In this document: one piece after another, positions 24,606-38,321 of the stretch
Position numbering within the stretch: the first letter of the stretch is position 1
Layout: each line of letters begins with the position of its first letter
DNA from: Lachnospiraceae bacterium
Lineage (GTDB): Bacteria; Bacillota; Clostridia; Lachnospirales; Lachnospiraceae
NCBI GenBank assembly: GCA_017621075.1
Contig: JAGATV010000057.1
Span: 43,038 to 107,037 of the forward strand
Direction: 5' to 3'
DNA: 64,000 nt
Notes under the pieces: generated by a model
The model's input: only the letters and a program-made list of their open reading frames with translations
Told to the model about the DNA's origin: nothing
Database searches by the model: none
Position numbers and translations under genes: made by a program

Positions 24606-26507
24606 CTATTCGTCTGACTCTATTACAGCATCTGTATATTTCCGTTGCATATCGTGTCGCTTTTTTCGATTCTCTACGGTTTCAAATATGATTGAAAAAT
24701 CATAATCCTCAGGATAGAGCTCTGTGGCTGCAACATGGAGTTTTACCCGCTTATGATTGATCCAAATCTTTTTATTTGGCAACTGTACCCTTAACACGCC
24801 TTTTTCGTTAATGGGAACGCACACTATCCCTATCTTTTTTTCGGGATAAACCATTACACTATCACCAATTTTGTACTTGGTGCTAAGCTTTGCATGATCC
24901 GTTCCCACTTTAGCTTTGGAAATCTTAGCGGTGTTTCTCTTCATGAGGTTGCTTTCAGGATTTTGAAACAGATAAGACTTCACTGCATCTTCGCCATATG
25001 CAGCACGAATTGCCACTTTTAACATTTCGTTTGGCATCCCCAGCCTGTCTGCAATATAAAATGCGCAGCTTTCTCCTGCTTCGCCAATGATCATTTGATA
25101 AGTAGGACTTAATGTTTCTTTGTCAAAAGCCATCCTTGCATTGACGATATCCTCTGTCTTTGCTGCATATTCCTTGATCTCCGGATAGTGGGTTGTCACC
25201 AGAAAAATAGCACCACTTTTTCTAAGTTCCTCCAATATTGCAATGGCAATCCCCATGCCTTCTGTAGGATCTGTGCCGGAGCCTAATTCGTCCATAATCA
25301 CAAAGCTATCCTTATTTGCCTCCCTTAAGACTTCCAGCACATTGGTTATGTGTGCGGAAAAGGTAGACAGATTTTCAGATAAATTCTGCCCATCGCCAAT
25401 ATCACATAGATAAGAACTATTCATACAGATATCTGCCTGTTTACATGTTACATGCAAGCCGCATTGTGCCATGATGCAATTTAGCATAACCGTTTTGATT
25501 GCTACCGTTTTCCCTCCCGTGTTAGGACCTGTTATCACAATACCGCGCACTTTTTGCCCTATATCAAACTGTAATGGCACAGCTATCGTTTTATCCATCA
25601 AAGGATGTCGTGCATTTGTGAGTCTGATTCGGCGGTCTGTATTGATCGTCGGCTCTATGGCGTCCATTTCCAGGCTTAATTTACCTTTGGAGAAGATAAA
25701 ATCCAACTTTTCGATCATTGTCAGATTTTCGTGCAATATAGGTGCTGATGCCAATACGATCGATGATAAAGTATACAAAATACGATATACTTCATTTTCT
25801 TCACTGATTTTCAGCAACTCCAATTCTTCATAATATTTGGCGACACTTGACGGTTCCATAAAAAGGGTGCTGCCCGTGGAAGACTTGTCAATGACGCTGC
25901 CGGATATCTTCAGTCGATATTCCTTTTTCACGGGGAGACAAATTCGTCCATTTCTAAACGTGCAGTAGCTGTCAGCCATGCAGGCCTTATAAGAACGCAT
26001 GATTTGTTCCGCCTTCTGTTTCATATGTTCTTCACATTTTATGATCTGATTTCGAATCTGTCCTAATTCCTTTGATGCGTAATCATCCACAGCGCCGTTT
26101 CGGATTTTATTACATATCTCTTGGCGCAATTCCACAAGCGCATCCAGATTTTCTTCATAATATGCCAAGGAATTATGATGGATTTTCCCTTTTTCCAAAT
26201 AATCCTTCAGCCGTTTTATCGCAGCCAAAACTCTCTCTACTCGTTCTAACTGATATGGCGTCAGGCAATCCCCCTTCTCTGCGATCAACAGAATATCTTT
26301 TATCTCAGAAATGTTTTGCAGAGGCGGTGTCCCTATTTTTTCAATCAGGTTTCTGGCATCTGTGGTATCTCTTAACTGTTTTCTCAACTCATTTTCAGAA
26401 AAGTACAAGGAAGCTTCGCTGATTTTTTCTTTTGCCCGATCGGTAATGGCTAAGCCGGCCCATATTTCTTTGACCTTATCAAATTCTATCTGTCTGTCAA
26501 TATTCAT
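24606..26507 (-). CDS. MutS2-like ATPase lacking the Smr domain
   Basis: This 633-residue protein has a MutS2-type core: clamp/lever helices (about 1-290), Walker A GPNTGGKTV near 323, Walker B FVIMDELGSGTDPTEG near 400, and VTTHYPE. After a long helix there is a small beta-rich segment, KIGDSVMVYPEKKIGIV to INHKRVKL (about 542-590), resembling the KOW domain of MutS2. The usual C-terminal Smr nuclease domain is absent; typical MutS2 is near 785 residues. In Bacillus subtilis, MutS2 splits collided ribosomes, using KOW to contact them. A ribosome-rescue role here is inferred. Base composition is clearly more AT-rich than neighbours. Weak ribosome site AAAGGA. Expression is probably controlled by the leader described next. 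Confidence 0.9.
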   Translation of the reverse strand: MNIDRQIEFDKVKEIWAGLAITDRAKEKISEASLYFSENELRKQLRDTTDARNLIEKIGTPPLQNISEIKDILLIAEKGDCLTPYQLERVERVLAAIKRLKDYLEKGKIHHNSLAYYEENLDALVELRQEICNKIRNGAVDDYASKELGQIRNQIIKCEEHMKQKAEQIMRSYKACMADSYCTFRNGRICLPVKKEYRLKISGSVIDKSSTGSTLFMEPSSVAKYYEELELLKISEENEVYRILYTLSSIVLASAPILHENLTMIEKLDFIFSKGKLSLEMDAIEPTINTDRRIRLTNARHPLMDKTIAVPLQFDIGQKVRGIVITGPNTGGKTVAIKTVMLNCIMAQCGLHVTCKQADICMNSSYLCDIGDGQNLSENLSTFSAHITNVLEVLREANKDSFVIMDELGSGTDPTEGMGIAIAILEELRKSGAIFLVTTHYPEIKEYAAKTEDIVNARMAFDKETLSPTYQMIIGEAGESCAFYIADRLGMPNEMLKVAIRAAYGEDAVKSYLFQNPESNLMKRNTAKISKAKVGTDHAKLSTKYKIGDSVMVYPEKKIGIVCVPINEKGVLRVQLPNKKIWINHKRVKLHVAATELYPEDYDFSIIFETVENRKKRHDMQRKYTDAVIESDE

Positions 26508-26532
26508 TTTTTTAATCCTTTCCCTCTAAACT

Positions 26533-26562
26533 ATGGTATCGCCTGAAACGCAAAAGTACCAT
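26533..26562 (-). promoter_or_regulatory. Second hairpin in the MutS2-like leader, close to the start codon
   Basis: A 6-bp stem (ATGGTA at 26533-26538 with TACCAT at 26557-26562) has extra G/C pairs inside. It lies between the terminator-like hairpin and the ribosome site of the MutS2-like gene and could affect translation. Confidence 0.35.
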
Positions 26563-26581
26563 GGATACTCCAAGAAGGAAT

Positions 26582-26610
26582 AAAAATAGCATGACCATAC
26601 AGTCATGCTA
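26582..26610 (-). terminator. Terminator-like attenuator in the leader of the MutS2-like gene
   Basis: On the minus strand, a perfect 9-bp stem (TAGCATGAC, 6-nt loop, GTCATGCTA; 26610-26602 and 26595-26587) is followed by TTTTTATT-type T-rich sequence. It lies about 180 nt after the promoter and 75 nt before the start codon, inside the transcript of the gene it precedes. That position is expected for conditional termination. Confidence 0.65.
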
Positions 26611-26667
26611 ATATCATCTATGGAAATATAGTTACCACAATATTAAGCGATCGTAAGGCGAAAACGC

Positions 26668-26685
26668 TGACAACGCATGTTGTCA
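26668..26685 (-). promoter_or_regulatory. Leader hairpin between leader peptide and attenuator
   Basis: A perfect 7-bp palindrome (TGACAAC, loop, GTTGTCA) about 50 nt after the leader-peptide stop. It could form part of an antiterminator/pausing structure. I cannot fold the whole leader by eye. Confidence 0.4.
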
Positions 26686-26733
26686 ACAAATGGGTAGACT
26701 CCCAGTGTGAACTAAAAATCACCCTTGCAGTAT

Positions 26734-26772
26734 TTATTTTGCAATTTTCTCCATTACAATAACACTTAACAT
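26734..26772 (-). CDS. 12-residue leader peptide MLSVIVMEKIAK
   Basis: Starting at the ATG at 26772 with AGGAGG (26785-26780) 7 bases upstream, this 13-codon frame encodes M-L-S-V-I-V-M-E-K-I-A-K and a TAA stop. The ribosome site is far better than that of the MutS2-like gene behind it. Short, strongly translated leader peptides before a terminator hairpin are the usual form of ribosome-stalling control for antibiotic-resistance genes (erm, ABC-F genes). It is not rich in one amino acid, so amino-acid starvation sensing is unlikely. Confidence 0.6.
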   Translation of the reverse strand: MLSVIVMEKIAK

Positions 26773-26798
26773 GCAGAATCCTCCTAAAACTTTTATTT

Positions 26799-26827
26799 AT
26801 TATACATCATCCTGTGTTGATATTCAA
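26799..26827 (-). promoter_or_regulatory. Promoter of the MutS2-like gene and its leader
   Basis: On the minus strand, TTGAAT (26827-26822) and TATAAT (26804-26799) have a 17-bp spacer. Transcription would start near 26792, giving a leader of about 285 nt before the MutS2-like ATG. Confidence 0.7.
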
Positions 26828-26904: not shown

Positions 26905-26957
26905 AAATACAAGTCACTCCGGTTTACAACTATGATTCATCTATGTGCCAATATGTA

Positions 26958-27004
26958 ACATCCCCCGGATATGATAGATATTGTCATATCCGGGGGATGT
27001 TTTT
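26958..27004 (+). terminator. Strong terminator now without a gene in front of it
   Basis: A perfect 17-bp stem (26958-26974 with 26984-27000, 9-nt loop, GC-rich core CCCCCGG) is followed by T residues. The nearest plus-strand gene upstream is the deacetylase, 2.3 kb away across the MutS2-like cassette. I infer that this was its original terminator. Confidence 0.85.
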
Positions 27005-27912: not shown

Positions 27913-28815
27913 ATGGAAAATTATGCAGTATTATCTTTGGAAACACATTTATTTTTTGCGAGGATCATGAAGGAGCACGGTCTGTTTCTGGAAGCGGGAT
28001 TTCCCTGCGCCGATGCGGCGTGGATGGAACGGGCAGATTGGTTTCGCAGGCAGTTTGAGGACCTGCTAAGAGACACCGTGGAACTTAGCGACGGCAGGGT
28101 AAATCCCCTGATCCTGGATTCTCAGGAATTGGTAACGGAATTTACCATACCGGCAGAACGGCGCACGGAGCGCTTGAGCGGAGTGACCATTGACAGCAGG
28201 ATATCGGTCGCAGAGCAGGAACTGCACCCCGGATGTCCCATCAGGAGTGACAGGGAACTGACCGGAGCCGTTCACGGAATCAACCGCAGAGCATTACAGC
28301 TTTTGGACGGTTTTATCGACTTTAAGGAAAATATTCTGGAAGAGGTAGGCAGGTGCAGACTTTTTACTGCCAACTATCCCCTGCTTATCAAGCATATCCT
28401 CAGGGAGGCAAAGCTGTATCGTGCCACTGTGCAGGAATTGCTGGAAGACAGGGAGCTTTCCTACAAGAATCTGACAGAGACAGAAGAATTCTGGAACCGG
28501 ATCATGATGGAGCATGCCCTGTTCATCAGAGGACTGTTAGATCCCTCGGAAGTGAAACTGATAGAGACGGCGGATCAGTTCGCAACGGAATATCAGGAAC
28601 TTTTGGAAAGAGCCAGACGACAGGATTGCAAGGCTCTCGGCCTGACGGAGGAAACACTGGCAGAGACCTTGAAATACCGGGATTTCAAAGCAGCCGGGGC
28701 GGAAGGGATCCTGGACTGTAAGATTGCATCCATTATCCTGCCGCTATTGGCGGACCATGTGCTGCGGGAGGCCAATCACTATATCCGTCTGTTACAGGCA
28801 GATAGCAGGGAATAG
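27913..28815 (+). CDS. DUF2935 family protein (ferritin-like helical bundle)
   Basis: This 300-residue, helix-rich protein matches DUF2935 (PF11155), a duplicated ferritin-like four-helix domain. The two halves start with similar E-H-x2-F segments: KEHGLFLEAG near residue 19 and MEHALFIRGLL near 198. Conserved Glu and His such as ILREAKLY and HVLREANHY could bind metal. Function is unknown. It lies directly before the multicopper oxidase gene (13 bp), so the two are probably one unit, hinting at metal handling. Start ATG at 27913. Confidence 0.85.
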   Translation: MENYAVLSLETHLFFARIMKEHGLFLEAGFPCADAAWMERADWFRRQFEDLLRDTVELSDGRVNPLILDSQELVTEFTIPAERRTERLSGVTIDSRISVAEQELHPGCPIRSDRELTGAVHGINRRALQLLDGFIDFKENILEEVGRCRLFTANYPLLIKHILREAKLYRATVQELLEDRELSYKNLTETEEFWNRIMMEHALFIRGLLDPSEVKLIETADQFATEYQELLERARRQDCKALGLTEETLAETLKYRDFKAAGAEGILDCKIASIILPLLADHVLREANHYIRLLQADSRE

Positions 28816-28828
28816 GGGGTGAGGAAGG

Positions 28829-31800
28829 ATGGAACTAGGTCATTACCCCGATCAGGGAAAATGTCGTTTCTATGAGATAGAAGCCATTGAAATCCCTATT
28901 GTCTACAACAAGTACGGGGATCATGATCCCAATGGGCTTTTGTATGTGCTAAAGAAGGATGCCGAAAGGATACGGGAAGGGGCGTTAGCGCATTTTGCCA
29001 TGGACCCGCCGTAACCCTATAAAGAAGTGCAGCCGTTAGTCATCCGGGCCAATGTGGGGGATACTGTAAAGATTGCCTTCAGCCATTCCCTGAACCGTGC
29101 CCTGTCCATCCATGTACAGGGCCTCAGATATGACGTGCAGACGTCAGACGGCGCCAGTGTAGGTTTTAATAAGGATTCTACAACTAAAGGCCATATCCTC
29201 TATACCTGGTACGCAGACAGGGAGGGAGTCTATTCCTTCCAGGATATGGGAGATACCAGGAGCAGTGAAGAAGGAACCAATATCCACGGATTGTTTGGTG
29301 CGATCATTGTGGAGGCGGCAGAATCCACTTGGCTTCACCCGGAGACGGGAGAGGAAATGGAAAGCGGCCTGTTTGCCGATATCTATCATCCGGTGTTCCC
29401 GGCGTTCAGGGAGTATGCAGTCTTCTTCCACGATGAGCTGGAAATAAAGAATAAGGACGGCGATCAGCCGATAGATCCGCACACGGGGCTTGCATCTGCC
29501 ACCACGGCCATCAGCTATCGTTCGGAACCTATGAGGAACCGCCCTCCCCTGACCCATGACCACAGTGATTCCGGGGAGGATATTTCCATGAGTTCCTGGG
29601 TGTATGGAGATCCGGCACCGCCCATTTTGCGGGCTTATGTGGGGGATTCTGCCAAGATCAGGCTGATCCACGGCGGAGTCAAGGAGACTCATGTGTTCCA
29701 CCTGCACAACCACCAGTGGCGACTCCAGGGGGATAATCCCAATTCCACGATTATCGACTCTATTTCCATCAGCCCCCAGGAATGTTATACCCTGGATATC
29801 CTCCATGGGGCAGGCAGCCTGAATGGGACTATCGGGGATGTGATCTTCCACTGCCATCTTTACCCTCACTTTCATGAGGGAATGTGGACCCTCTGGAGGA
29901 TTCATGACAGGCTGGAGGATGGAACGGGCACCCTGCCGGACGGAACGGCTATACCGCCGTTGATGCCGCTAAAAGACAGGGTAAGGCCGCCCCAAAAAGA
30001 TAAACGTCATCCGGGCTATCCCGGCTTCATTCACGGGACCTACAAAGAAGTTCCCCTGCAGCCGCCTTTGGGTGTCTTAAACCCTGATGGCAGTTTAAAG
30101 CGGCAGCCGACAGAACTGGAGCAGGACAATTTTGTGGAGGAGTTTGCACCGGGCGCACTGTACTGTGAGACCTGTCCCTGTTATACGGACGGGGAGAGGG
30201 AACGGGATTGCTGCACGCCCTGTGGCTGTCTGGAAGAGGATAAGGTAAAGGTGTTTGAAATCGCCCTGATACAGGCCAAGGTCATTTACAACAGCTATGG
30301 CTGGCACGACCCTCAGGGAAGATTTTTCGTGATGAAGGAGGATCTGGAAAAGCACGGTGGTCTGGATGCCTATATCGAAAAGGTGGAAAAGGGCATCATA
30401 TGTGCAGAACCCCTTGTGCTCCGTGCCCATGCGGGAGACTGCGTGGAAGTGAGACTGACCAACCTGCTTCCGGAATTTTTGGAGGAGAGCCCCTTCCAGA
30501 TGAAGACCAGAACGGATATCGCAGGCTATCATATCCACCTTGTGAAATTTGATACCATTGTTTCGGACGGAGCGGCCAACGGCTGGAATAATATTGCGGG
30601 GGCCGGAAGATATGAGACCCTGATAGAGAGGTTTTTCCTGGATACAGAGTTAAGGACGGTATTTTTCCACGATCATCTGTTTGCCAATTCCCATCAGCAG
30701 CACGGGGTGTTCGGTGCGCTTTTCGTGGAAGAAGCCGGGGCCACCTTCCATGACGTCCGCACGGGAGAAGAGATCGATCATGGCACCAGGGCAGTCATTC
30801 GCAGGAGGGACGGCACCTCTTTCCGGGAATTTGCGCTGTTTGTCCATGACTTTGCTCTATTGTTTGACAAAAATGGCAAGCCCTTAAATCCTCCTGAGGT
30901 TCCGGGCTCCCATGATGATCCCGGGGTCATGGGGATCAATTACCGTTCGGAGCCCATGCGGGAGCGCTTGAAGGATCACAGCGATCCGGCCTATATCTTC
31001 AGTTCCATCGCCCATGGAGACCCTGCCACACCGATTCTGGAAACTTATCCCGGAGAGGAATTGATGATCCGCCTTTTAGACGGCGCCCATGAGGAGCAGC
31101 ATGCTTTCAACCTTACGGGAATGAGCTGGAAAAAGGAGATTGCCAATCCCACATCCCCGGATGTGGCATCCCAGACCCTGGGAATATCGGAGGCTTTTAA
31201 CATCCATGTCACAAAGCAGTACGGTGCCGGGGATTATCTCTATTATTTCGGGGGTATCGATGATGTCTGGCTGGGGCTTTGGGGCATCATCAGAGTGTAT
31301 GACTGCCCCAGGGAATGTCTGAAGCCCTTGTGTAAAGGTGCGGGACAGATCCTGCCCCTTCCGCCCTGCCCCGGAAAGGATGCAGTCATCCGCAGATATC
31401 AGGTGGCGGCTGTTCAGAGCAAAATACGCTATAACCGGCATGGGGACCATGATCCCGACGGGCTGATCTTTGTGCCTCTTGCGGAAGCAGATCGGGCCCT
31501 GTGCGGGGATTATCAGCCCAAACCGCTGATCCTGCGGGCAAATGCAGGTGACTGGATAGAGGTTACCCTCCACAATCTCTTTGATGAAAACCACCCGGTT
31601 CCCTATTTTGATTATCCGAAAGTACCGCTGGATCTGCCCCACAAACCCTCCATGCGGGTGTCTTTAAATCCGCAGTTTTTGTACTATGATCCTGTCTGCG
31701 ATTCCGGCATCAATGTGGGTTACAACAACAGGGAGCAGACGGTGGGACCGGGTGAGAGCAAAAAGTATCTGTGGTACGCAGATAAGGAATACGGTCCCTG

Positions 31801-32530
31801 CATCATACAGTCCTTTGGGGATATGCGCAACCACAGATATCACGGACTGTTTGGCGCGGTGATCATCGAGCCTCCGGGGGCGAAATGGTATCGGAATTTT
31901 TCCCTGGCAATGGCAGCCCATGAGGAGGAAGTGGTCATTACAGCTCCCGGAACAGAGCACTTCCGGGAATGTGTCCTGATGATCCAGAACGGTATCCGGA
32001 TGTTGGATAAGGATGGCCGTCTGGTTCAGACCACGGCGTCTGAGGAGGCAGAAGCGCCGGATGCCGAAGATACGGGAGAGAAGGGGTATAACTACCGTTC
32101 CGAGCGGTTTGCCAACCGGTTGAAAAAAGATGGCAGGATCTCCAAGATCTTTAACAGCAGGATACATGGTGATCCCGCGACCCCTGTTTTTAAGGCATAT
32201 ACAGGGGAAAGAGTGATCTTTCGTACCATGATGCCCGGGGATAAACCCCGCAATACCGGTCTGGTGATCCATGGAAACAGCTGGAAGAGACAGCCGCAGG
32301 ACCCTTACTCGGAAAGGATCCCCATGCAGGGGGCCGTCAGTGTGGGAAATACCTTCAATATGGAACTGAAGGATGGCGCCTGCTGTCCCGGCGATTACCT
32401 GTATCGTTCGGGAAGCTTGAGATGGGATGTGGAATCAGGTATGTGGGGGATCCTTCGCATAATGAAGCAGGGGATCGGATGTAAATGCAGGAATGCCTGC
32501 AGGAAGATCATGCACTGCGTGGGAAGATAG
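28829..32530 (+). pseudogene. Large six-cupredoxin multicopper oxidase (MnxG-like size), interrupted by an in-frame TAA
   Basis: One continuous frame of 1234 codons carries a single stop, TAA at 29012-29014, between MDPP and PYKEVQPLVIRAN; a C-to-T change of a CAA Gln codon would explain it. The protein is three tandem two-domain units, each with an R-A-N/H-A/V-G-D strand. Copper ligands are uneven: HLHNHQW and HCHLYPHFHEGMW (type 1 and type 3 ligands, axial Met) are in unit 1, while YHIHLVKFD and FFHDHLF are at the start of unit 2. Other domains have lost their ligands. Length and six-domain plan recall MnxG manganese oxidase and ceruloplasmin. No export signal is seen. The downstream frame opens at a GTG (29027) without a ribosome site. 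Confidence 0.8.
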
Positions 32531-36971: not shown

Positions 36972-38321
36972 ATGGATCTGTTTGAATATATGAGAAGTAC
37001 AAATATGGAGAAGGAATCGCCACTGGCGGCCAGGATGCGCCCCCGCACCCTGGATGAGGTGGTAGGTCAGGAGCATATCATCGGAAAGGATAAGCTGCTT
37101 TACCGTGCCATCAAGGCGGACAAGATCAGTTCCATCATCTTTTACGGGCCGCCGGGGACCGGCAAGACCACCCTTGCGAAAGTCATTGCCAATACTACCA
37201 GTGCGGAGTTTACCCAGATCAATGCCACGGTGTCCGGCAAGAAGGACATGGAGGAGGTAGTGGCAAAGGCCAAGGAACTTCAGGGGATGTACGGTAAACG
37301 CACCATCCTTTTCATCGATGAGATCCACCGTTTTAACAAAGGACAGCAGGACTATCTGCTTCCGTTCGTGGAGGACGGCACCATCATTCTGATCGGGGCA
37401 ACCACGGAGAATCCTTATTTTGAGGTGAACGGGGCGCTGATCTCCCGGTCTGTGATCTTTGAACTGAAACCGATTCCTAAGGAAGCCATCAAAGAACTTT
37501 TAAAAAAGGCAGTGTATGATACAGAGAGAGGCATGGGCTCTTACAATGCGGAAATTGATGAGGAAGCCTTGGATTTTTTGGCGGATATCTCAGGAGGAGA
37601 TGCCAGACATGCCTTAAATGCCATTGAGCTGGGTGTGATGACTACGGAGCGGTCAGAGGATGGCAGGATACACATTACCCTGGATGTGGCTCAGGAGTGT
37701 ATCCAGAAGCGTGCGGTGCGATATGACAAGAATGGTGACAGTCATTACGACACGGTTTCCGCCTTTATCAAGAGCATGCGGGGATCGGACCCGGATGCGG
37801 CGGTGTATTACCTTGCAAGGATGCTCTATGCCGGGGAGAGTGTGACTTTTATTGCAAGGCGCATCATGATCTGTGCTTCCGAGGATGTGGGGAATGCAGA
37901 TCCCCAGGCGCTTTTGGTGGCAGTCAGCGCTTCCCAGGCAGTGGAGCGCATCGGCATGCCTGAGGCACAGATCATTCTGTCCCAGGCGGCAGCTTATGTG
38001 GCGAGCGCTCCCAAGAGCAACGCCAGCTACAATGCGGTATTTGAGGCCATGCAGGAGGTGGAGAGGACAGGAAACCTCCCCATTCCTCCACACTTGCAGG
38101 ATGCACATTATAAAGGAGCGGCAAAATTGGGACACGGAACAGGTTATAAATATGCACATGATTACCCCAACAATTATGTGGAACAGCAGTATCTGCCTTA
38201 TGAGCTTTCCGGCAGGGAGTTTTACCGCCCCAGTGGAAACGGGTATGAGGTCAAGATAAAGGAGCATATGAAGCGCCTCAGGGAGGAAGCGAGGAGTGGA
38301 AATGCGGTAAACAAAGAGTAA
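36972..38321 (+). CDS. rarA: Replication-associated recombination protein RarA (MgsA)
   Basis: This 449-residue clamp-loader-like AAA+ ATPase acts at stalled replication forks. Seen: Walker A GPPGTGKTT near residue 60, Walker B LFIDEIHRFNKGQQD near 114, sensor GATTENPYFEVN, SGGDARHALNAIE, and the C-terminal tetramerisation region YHYDTVSAFIKSMRGSD-type and ARRIMICASEDVGNADP. It matches the family over the full length. The start is behind AGAGGAG. Confidence 0.96.
   Translation: MDLFEYMRSTNMEKESPLAARMRPRTLDEVVGQEHIIGKDKLLYRAIKADKISSIIFYGPPGTGKTTLAKVIANTTSAEFTQINATVSGKKDMEEVVAKAKELQGMYGKRTILFIDEIHRFNKGQQDYLLPFVEDGTIILIGATTENPYFEVNGALISRSVIFELKPIPKEAIKELLKKAVYDTERGMGSYNAEIDEEALDFLADISGGDARHALNAIELGVMTTERSEDGRIHITLDVAQECIQKRAVRYDKNGDSHYDTVSAFIKSMRGSDPDAAVYYLARMLYAGESVTFIARRIMICASEDVGNADPQALLVAVSASQAVERIGMPEAQIILSQAAAYVASAPKSNASYNAVFEAMQEVERTGNLPIPPHLQDAHYKGAAKLGHGTGYKYAHDYPNNYVEQQYLPYELSGREFYRPSGNGYEVKIKEHMKRLREEARSGNAVNKE

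Follow-up and report, generated by a model that had tools for sequence, protein, structure and literature searches.

Attenuators of erm and ABC-F genes place a resistance gene under the control of a ribosome that stalls on a short leader peptide; their effectors methylate or protect the ribosome, and many of these attenuators act on translation, not transcription. The closest described parallel to the locus considered here is HflXr (lmo0762) of Listeria monocytogenes, a paralog of a ribosome-splitting factor that is controlled by premature transcription termination in the leader rli80, where an anti-antiterminator, an antiterminator and a terminator follow in that order and a leader open reading frame (ORF) overlaps the anti-antiterminator (PMC6310831; this paper and those cited below are used in excerpt). 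Here, a unit that appears to follow the same logic with an unrelated effector is described from a 64,000-nucleotide (nt) stretch of a Lachnospiraceae genome (assembly GCA_017621075.1, contig JAGATV010000057.1, positions 43,038 to 107,037; hereafter the window). Positions 26827-24606 on the minus strand form one monocistronic unit of promoter, leader ORF, structured leader, intrinsic terminator and a gene for a 633-residue MutS2-like protein (hereafter short MutS2). This unit is probably a translation-stress-inducible, stall-sensing transcription attenuator in control of a ribosome-splitting MutS2 paralog that serves as a rescue or resistance factor.

The HflXr-type architecture, with a leader ORF over the anti-antiterminator, an antiterminator and an intrinsic terminator, is recovered in the window by computation alone, whereas drug induction and resistance have been demonstrated for HflXr itself (PMC6310831). 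The leader ORF encodes 12 residues here against 14 in rli80 (PMC6310831), and the RLR stall motif of rli80 is absent from the leader peptides of the present family. The effector is a MutS-type ATPase and not a GTPase of the HflX family; unlike HflXr as described in the excerpts, relatives of this leader often carry two tandem terminators, and the leader is common to exporter, GNAT acetyltransferase and methyltransferase operons. The toiL-topAI system of E. coli is comparable in that a single leader ORF senses many stall positions, as would be the case here, but there repression is translational, involves Rho and is exerted on a toxin-antitoxin pair (PMC12121999). HflXr appears to be the only attenuator-controlled ribosome-splitting resistance factor found in print. 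Open-licence papers in PubMed Central (PMC; subscription papers and preprints lay outside this scope) yielded no description of an attenuator-controlled MutS2 paralog, in agreement with the first-pass annotation of this DNA, which had stated that no MutS2-type example is described. Nor were the peptides MLSVIVMEKIAK and MLSVVK found in the open-licence PMC literature on leader-peptide attenuators. A likeness of the leader peptide to ErmAL1 is possible and serves as a lead only. From the erm and ABC-F systems, with their methylating or protecting effectors, the unit differs in its candidate ribosome splitter and its predicted transcriptional attenuator.

In the proposed off state, the leader ORF would be either freely translated or untranslated, its codons would pair with a downstream core, and the terminator hairpin at 26610-26587 would halt RNA polymerase. 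In the on state, a ribosome would stall early on the leader ORF (within roughly codons 1-8), a ribosome-targeting drug being the presumed cause, and would cover the ORF; the freed core would capture the 5' side of the still unfinished terminator, and RNA polymerase would read on into short mutS2. The product, an ATPase with a KOW tail as a possible uS10 contact, would split stalled ribosomes into subunits. We infer the stall as the signal, drugs as its cause, and ribosome splitting with the resulting tolerance as the outcome.

The promoter is of the sigma-70 type (TTGAAT-17-TATAAT, 26799-26827, 10/12 matches). It is followed on the minus strand by the Shine-Dalgarno sequence AGGAGG (26780-26785), which is conserved in an alignment of 40 related leaders (hereafter A1), by the leader ORF MLSVIVMEKIAK with its stop codon (26734-26772, 12 codons), and by the hairpins P1 (26692-26724, from the fold) and P2 (26665-26688), a spacer hairpin. 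All of these are present where the first-pass annotation had placed them; the terminator hairpin that it reported is also there, but comprises 10 pairs (26610-26587, then TTTTT) and not 9. The motif of this intrinsic terminator with its U run (hereafter T1, 26582-26610) was recognised in 69 of 100 related leaders. Taken alone, the promoter and terminator scores are at or near chance level (10 promoter-like sites in the region against 6.9 expected, and 5 terminator-like sites against 3.2), and it is therefore conservation that carries the weight. The leader as a whole (26792-26508) folds at -88.7 kcal/mol against -63.0 kcal/mol for shuffled sequences (z -5.45; 0/200 shuffles as stable). Known Rfam leader families were rejected, since a scan of the window with Rfam 15 returned no family at gathering score in the leader and only two tRNAs in the window.

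The leader ORF doubles as strand 1 of the switch: it pairs with the strand CCTTACAATTGCTTAATATTGTGG of the core, CGCCTTACGATCGCTTAATATTGTGG (26635-26660), which can alternatively pair with the 5' side of T1 or, in relatives, with the 5' arm (CCATAGTATC) of a second terminator, T2. In swap tests across 100 leaders, native ORF:core pairing was stronger than swapped pairing (-17.7 against -14.6 kcal/mol) and none of 5000 permutations was as good, although related leaders are not independent and such counts are not strict probabilities. The corresponding values were -11.5 against -10.5 kcal/mol for core:T2 (0/5000; 72 leaders) and -8.6 against -7.9 kcal/mol for core:T1 (5/5000; 69 leaders), the 28 and 31 leaders of the 100 without a terminator of the expected motif being left out. 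Random downstream segments, used as a control, had no effect (1684/5000 as good). The window leader has apparently lost the 5' arm of T2 that many relatives keep: the place of T2 gives no motif terminator and at most a weak hairpin, and the three terminators predicted in the window include P1 and one weak hairpin, so that only T1 is meant here. The reverse is seen in the relative L009, which has lost T1 and kept T2.

Folding of the window transcript indicates how a ribosome on the leader could set this switch. With no ribosome, at least 19 ORF:core pairs form, the terminator is intact and the antiterminator target defined by ribosome-masked folding (the 5' arm of T1 with its upstream flank, 26603-26622) has 0.1-0.2 expected pairs with the core at transcript lengths of 194-202 nt. 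Two early ribosome positions were folded. At codon 7, no ORF:core pairs remain and 11-13 core:T1 pairs form at these same transcript lengths, where the terminator is incomplete; at the start codon there are 10-14 core:T1 pairs and about 3 ORF:core pairs. With the ribosome at the stop codon, 8-15 ORF:core pairs stay and core:T1 pairs number 0.1-1.6. From these pair counts, an early stall should open the switch and ordinary termination at the stop codon should mostly not. An antiterminator exclusive with the terminator, which the first-pass annotation had suggested looking for, thus exists in folding as core:T1 pairing when the ORF is masked. Across leaders, masking the ORF raised core:T1 pairs from 2.7 to 9.2 (n = 69; shuffled targets 4.4) and core:T2 pairs from 3.0 to 9.7 (n = 72; shuffled targets 2.5), where shuffling was by single bases and not dinucleotides. 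At least six core:T1 pairs were reached in 53 of 69 masked leaders, 11 unmasked and 24 shuffled, and at least six core:T2 pairs in 56 of 72 masked leaders, 17 unmasked and 13 shuffled. Within Lachnospirales, computation supports the structure of the predicted attenuator well, and the regulatory half of the inducible unit proposed by the first-pass annotation finds strong support in the conserved and mutually fitting ORF, core and terminators.

A covariance model (R1) built from the 40 leaders of A1 and applied at E <= 0.01 gave same-strand matches upstream of the gene in 65 of 80 homologous loci, which include 31 training members and 5 duplicates of training loci and leave a remainder of 29/44; homologues with the same leader, as sought by the first-pass annotation, are thus at hand. 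In a search independent of the protein, R1 gave 42 matches, spread over 40 of 397 Lachnospiraceae genomes. A wider model, R2, matched in 49/397 Lachnospiraceae genomes and also in 19/392 genomes of the order, adding four further families (a doubtful match excluded). The R2 match L162 (E 0.007) was rejected as apparently false, there being no such leader or gene at that place.

A promoter match of at least 10/12 lies within 80 bases upstream in 83 of 97 related leaders, against 5.8% of shuffles. A 12-codon ORF, mostly of the type MLSV[IV]VMEKIAK, was assigned in 64 of 100 related leaders by an automated choice that took a wrong, overlapping frame in ten UUG-start leaders and assigned none for L064. 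In L064, an insertion with a direct repeat (L064:3458-3808) interrupts the leader after the leader ORF. Other leader peptides are MLSVVK, MLSVVR, MLSVVIN and similar; the ORFs begin with ATG, TTG or GTG and end with any of the three stops, residue 5 varies among I, V, F, D, L and S, and runs of a single amino acid are not kept. RNAalifold found compensatory changes in P2, for example 12 both-sided changes among 40 sequences at columns 112-135. P2 is missing in L074 and L085, and P1 in L085, which therefore lacks both middle hairpins. At least one predicted terminator lies within 330 nt after the core in 99 of 100 leaders (none in L010), and two or more in 80, some of which may be in coding DNA.

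A conserved chromosomal locus was rejected: with available flanks of no more than 4 kb per side, blastn detected flanking DNA in common with the window in only 5/80 loci, and this suggests that the unit moves as a cassette. Carriage of the leader on plasmids or viruses was also rejected, with no match to one exact pattern and one 219-base query. In L048, L051 and L108, DNA about 1 kb after mutS2 is ~71% identical to window 36972-38203 or beyond; in the window itself, unlike in these three loci, that stretch lies more than 10 kb from mutS2.

The leader also precedes genes other than short mutS2. Among 30 leader loci from the R1 genome search (window included), 25 have a short mutS2 gene within 1.5 kb downstream, two lead to an ATP-binding cassette (ABC) exporter with a DrrA-like ATPase and an ABC2_membrane_6 permease, and two to GNAT acetyltransferases. 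A contig end cuts the locus L117, where the start of a short mutS2 gene is visible; in L138 a methyltransferase gene stands between leader and short mutS2. In longer stretches (L207-L213), the leader is followed in five cases by an exporter operon and in two by a GNAT gene, and no mutS2 was found in these stretches. Short mutS2 has a same-strand neighbour from these exporter, GNAT or methyltransferase families, before or after it, in 27/80 loci; the methyltransferase and the longer GNAT were found only together with mutS2. In L036, L037 and L042 a GNAT gene comes shortly after mutS2 and not before, as does a methyltransferase gene in L037 and L042, all of them members of the families named above.

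These partners bear on what the leader senses. A general response to translation stress (starvation, translation shut-off by phage or toxin, drugs), in which the leader would sense stalls of many kinds as toiL does, is the best-surviving alternative but an unlikely one. It draws on the folding, where either of the two early ribosome positions releases the core, and on toiL itself, which senses at least five drug classes (PMC12121999); the exporter and acetyltransferase partners point instead to small molecules, and PADLOC 2.0 gave generic ATPase and methylase matches only. For the window protein there was one weak match (mad8, E 3e-5), and for the exporter ATPase and the methyltransferase the best were mad3 (E 5e-24) and mad2 (E 4e-14); an anti-phage system was rejected on these grounds.

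A narrower alternative, in which the leader senses amino-acid starvation through stalls on Val, Ile and Leu codons (MLSVIVMEK, MLSVVK, MLGVVLN) and the gene supplies a rescue factor for starvation-stalled ribosomes, is improbable. Leader peptides rich in V, I and L do occur both in Lachnospirales and in distant forms, and the switch requires only a stall in the first codons. However, the genes downstream encode an exporter, GNATs, a methyltransferase and MutS2 and not branched-chain amino-acid synthesis, and the variable fifth position of the peptide, with no run of one amino acid kept, does not fit such a sensor. An amino-acid biosynthesis attenuator was likewise rejected, no biosynthetic operon being found behind the leader in the examined loci.

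Short MutS2 (24606-26507) consists of a MutS core, an ATPase and a KOW-like tail, with neither coiled coil nor Smr domain. It scores 540 bits against the TIGR01069 mutS2 profile (cut-off 400), but only over positions 6-510 of 790, which means that the Smr end is missing; a domain profile search gave no Smr match, and the 633-residue Smr-less MutS2-like gene of the first-pass annotation is thereby borne out. The MutS_V ATPase domain (PF00488) was matched with 126 bits, and both its Walker A motif (TGPNTGGKT, residues 326-334, 25506-25532) and its Walker B region (DELGSGTDP, residues 406-414, 25266-25292) have 8 of 9 residues invariant in 62 homologues. The best PDB matches are MutS2 chains, 7qv3 and 8qpp first (residues 6-498 aligned, E 7e-101); we take 7qv3, 8qpp and 8r55 to be entries for Bacillus subtilis MutS2. 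AlphaFold gave a mean predicted local distance difference test (pLDDT) score of 79 and a predicted template modelling (pTM) score of 0.69, with good values over most of residues 11-370 and fair ones to about 520.

The tail, which the first-pass annotation had called KOW-like, is homologous to the KOW region of canonical MutS2. Comparison of 37 short with 15 canonical proteins by hhalign aligned 65 columns at 94.4% probability and E 9.2e-8, against E 0.3 for a reversed decoy, and places the domain at about residues 541-592 (24732-24887). With fewer sequences the match was weaker (35%, E 4e-4), and the tail profile found no MutS2 chain in the PDB. Six canonical MutS2 proteins of relatives have, by reading, a long charged coiled-coil-like linker, a KOW and an Smr domain after the ATPase; in the short form this linker is absent and the ATPase passes into KOW within about 40 residues. 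In place of Smr stands a new and strongly conserved signature, LYPEDYDF...RK..H.M.RK (in the window ELYPEDYDFSIIFETVENRKKRHDMQRKYT, 24633-24719), with related ends in distant short forms. The short form therefore resembles B. subtilis MutS2 in MutS core, ATPase and KOW, but differs in lacking the ~115-residue coiled coil and Smr, in its terminal signature, in falling outside the canonical clade and in its position behind an attenuator. Short MutS2 proteins of 714 residues, ~80 residues longer, occur in L018, L019 and L088, the last two being the same locus.

A role in DNA metabolism has been proposed for some MutS2 proteins. A real attenuator in front of a protein that acts on DNA, in recombination or repair, with the leader coupling DNA metabolism to growth state, is a shade less credible than starvation sensing: the MutS_V ATPase domain is related to MutS, Msh2 and Msh3, but the best PDB matches are MutS2 chains, the tail is homologous to canonical KOW, and the partner genes are not repair genes. 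MutS2 of B. subtilis splits stalled ribosomes with ATP, and Walker mutants abolish splitting (PMC10897456). Its Walker B mutant is erythromycin-sensitive, whereas KOW and Smr mutants are only very modestly so (PMC10897456), and a form with ATPase and KOW could for this reason still work. Work in this species also suggests that more splitting factors exist besides MutS2 (PMC11633108). The effector half of the unit put forward by the first-pass annotation, ribosome rescue or antibiotic tolerance, is thus well motivated, by analogy, through the intact Walker motifs, the KOW homologue, the B. subtilis data and the resistance-type partner genes.

Short MutS2 and canonical MutS2 are distinct. Matches at the short-form level (E below 1e-139) occur in 36 of 91 genomes of its own or the same genus, canonical copies score about 1e-91 to 1e-100 in the same search, and both forms are present in single genomes such as G002 and G008. 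No canonical or other MutS2 copy was found in the window genome, which is 87% complete. A FastTree phylogeny of the core common to both unites the canonical proteins in a single clade (support 1.0), and none of the 37 complete short forms used falls inside it. That the gene is a plain housekeeping MutS2 whose tail has decayed and whose upstream terminator is mere coincidence is very improbable, for although the window gene is possibly the sole copy in its incomplete genome and promoter and terminator scores alone are near chance, canonical MutS2 is a separate and fully supported clade, relatives carry both forms, the tail is strongly conserved, and the leader is conserved with parts that fit each other. 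One canonical mutS2 gene (L204) has an internal TGA.

Outside Lachnospirales, named hosts of the short form are Acetoanaerobium, Cytobacillus and Paenibacillus, and 17 more short forms occur in genomes of other classes of the phylum. Terminators precede short mutS2 in the three named genera, and tiny ORFs upstream of these genes encode MLGVVLN, MTTGVLN (by reading), MSVNVLN and MSVIVLL; in the three Bacilli the end of the ORF itself recurs as an exact inverted repeat of 10-12 bases (GTTCTTAACTAA). Within a phylum-wide sample, grouped into short and canonical by the core tree, a terminator is predicted within 420 nt upstream in 18/18 complete short forms (window included) against 2/11 canonical, a contrast that may be inflated since canonical mutS2 genes often lie inside operons; two or more terminators precede 16 of the 18. 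A tiny ORF with a Shine-Dalgarno sequence is found in 16/21 distant short forms against 2/11 canonical ones, and ten of these 16 end in Asn (MLGVVLN, VLEVVLN, MSVSVLN, LLNVSVMVIFN and others), comparable to the Lachnospirales leader MLSVVIN. For the distant short forms, leader and terminator are supported, the same switch not yet.

Several observations weigh against a stall-sensing attenuator that controls a ribosome splitter. Once complete, T1 is the favoured equilibrium structure in all cases, masking of the leader ORF included, and the choice of the switch must therefore be kinetic. ORF:core pairs are nearly invariant within A1, with at most one both-sided change per pair, so that support for this helix comes from the wider swap test, and conservation of the leader peptide is partly confounded with RNA pairing. 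No R1 leader match was found in 15/80 loci, two of which have little or no upstream DNA. Among distant short forms, pairing of the ORF with downstream sequence beats shuffles (z <= -2.5) in only 3/21 (0/11 for canonical genes), L198, a cut gene that groups with short forms, has no terminator, and a terminator ahead of a monocistronic gene can also be that of the preceding gene. On the protein side, pLDDT is below 50 over residues 525-609, which leaves the KOW fold to the profile match alone, and of the Q668xxILK motif, with which B. subtilis MutS2 contacts uS10, only part has a counterpart (Q..NKK, by reading). In addition, a promoting role in the binding of collided ribosomes is reported for KOW and above all for Smr (EMBO J, PMC10897456); by analogy the Smr-less form may bind ribosomes weakly or elsewhere, and its recruitment must differ.

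Immediately beyond the unit, the 3' neighbour of short mutS2 is a convergent polysaccharide deacetylase gene and the 5' genes are divergent. Between the promoter of the unit and these divergent genes lies a near-perfect 20-pair palindrome with a CCCCCGG arm (26957-27001), followed by a T run on the plus strand. Further on, 27913-32530 encodes a DUF2935 protein and then a 1167-residue multicopper-oxidase-like protein.

Ribosomes on an mRNA are spaced about 28 nt apart. A leader ORF of 6-13 codons has no room for a second ribosome behind a stall at codon 7, and it is a further inference that a factor dependent on collisions would not clear its own sensor ribosome. More tentatively, and at somewhat less than even chance, the leader may mark an antibiotic-response regulon in Lachnospirales that has so far gone undescribed and has older origins in Bacillota. 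Its short leader ORFs, collision-proof and mostly of 6-13 codons, with single or tandem terminators, would control a splitter, an exporter, two GNAT families and a methyltransferase, and short MutS2 would relate to canonical MutS2 as HflXr does to HflX, as its inducible counterpart, and, being collision-dependent, would be unable to clear the sensor ribosome. The shared leader marks candidate drug-response genes (exporters, acetyltransferases and methyltransferases) in gut commensals and makes the inducers of these genes directly testable by a simple reporter. If the stall-sensing attenuator and its ribosome-splitting MutS2 paralog are as proposed, an unrelated ATPase has come under the logic of HflXr, and inducible ribosome splitting would have arisen at least twice.

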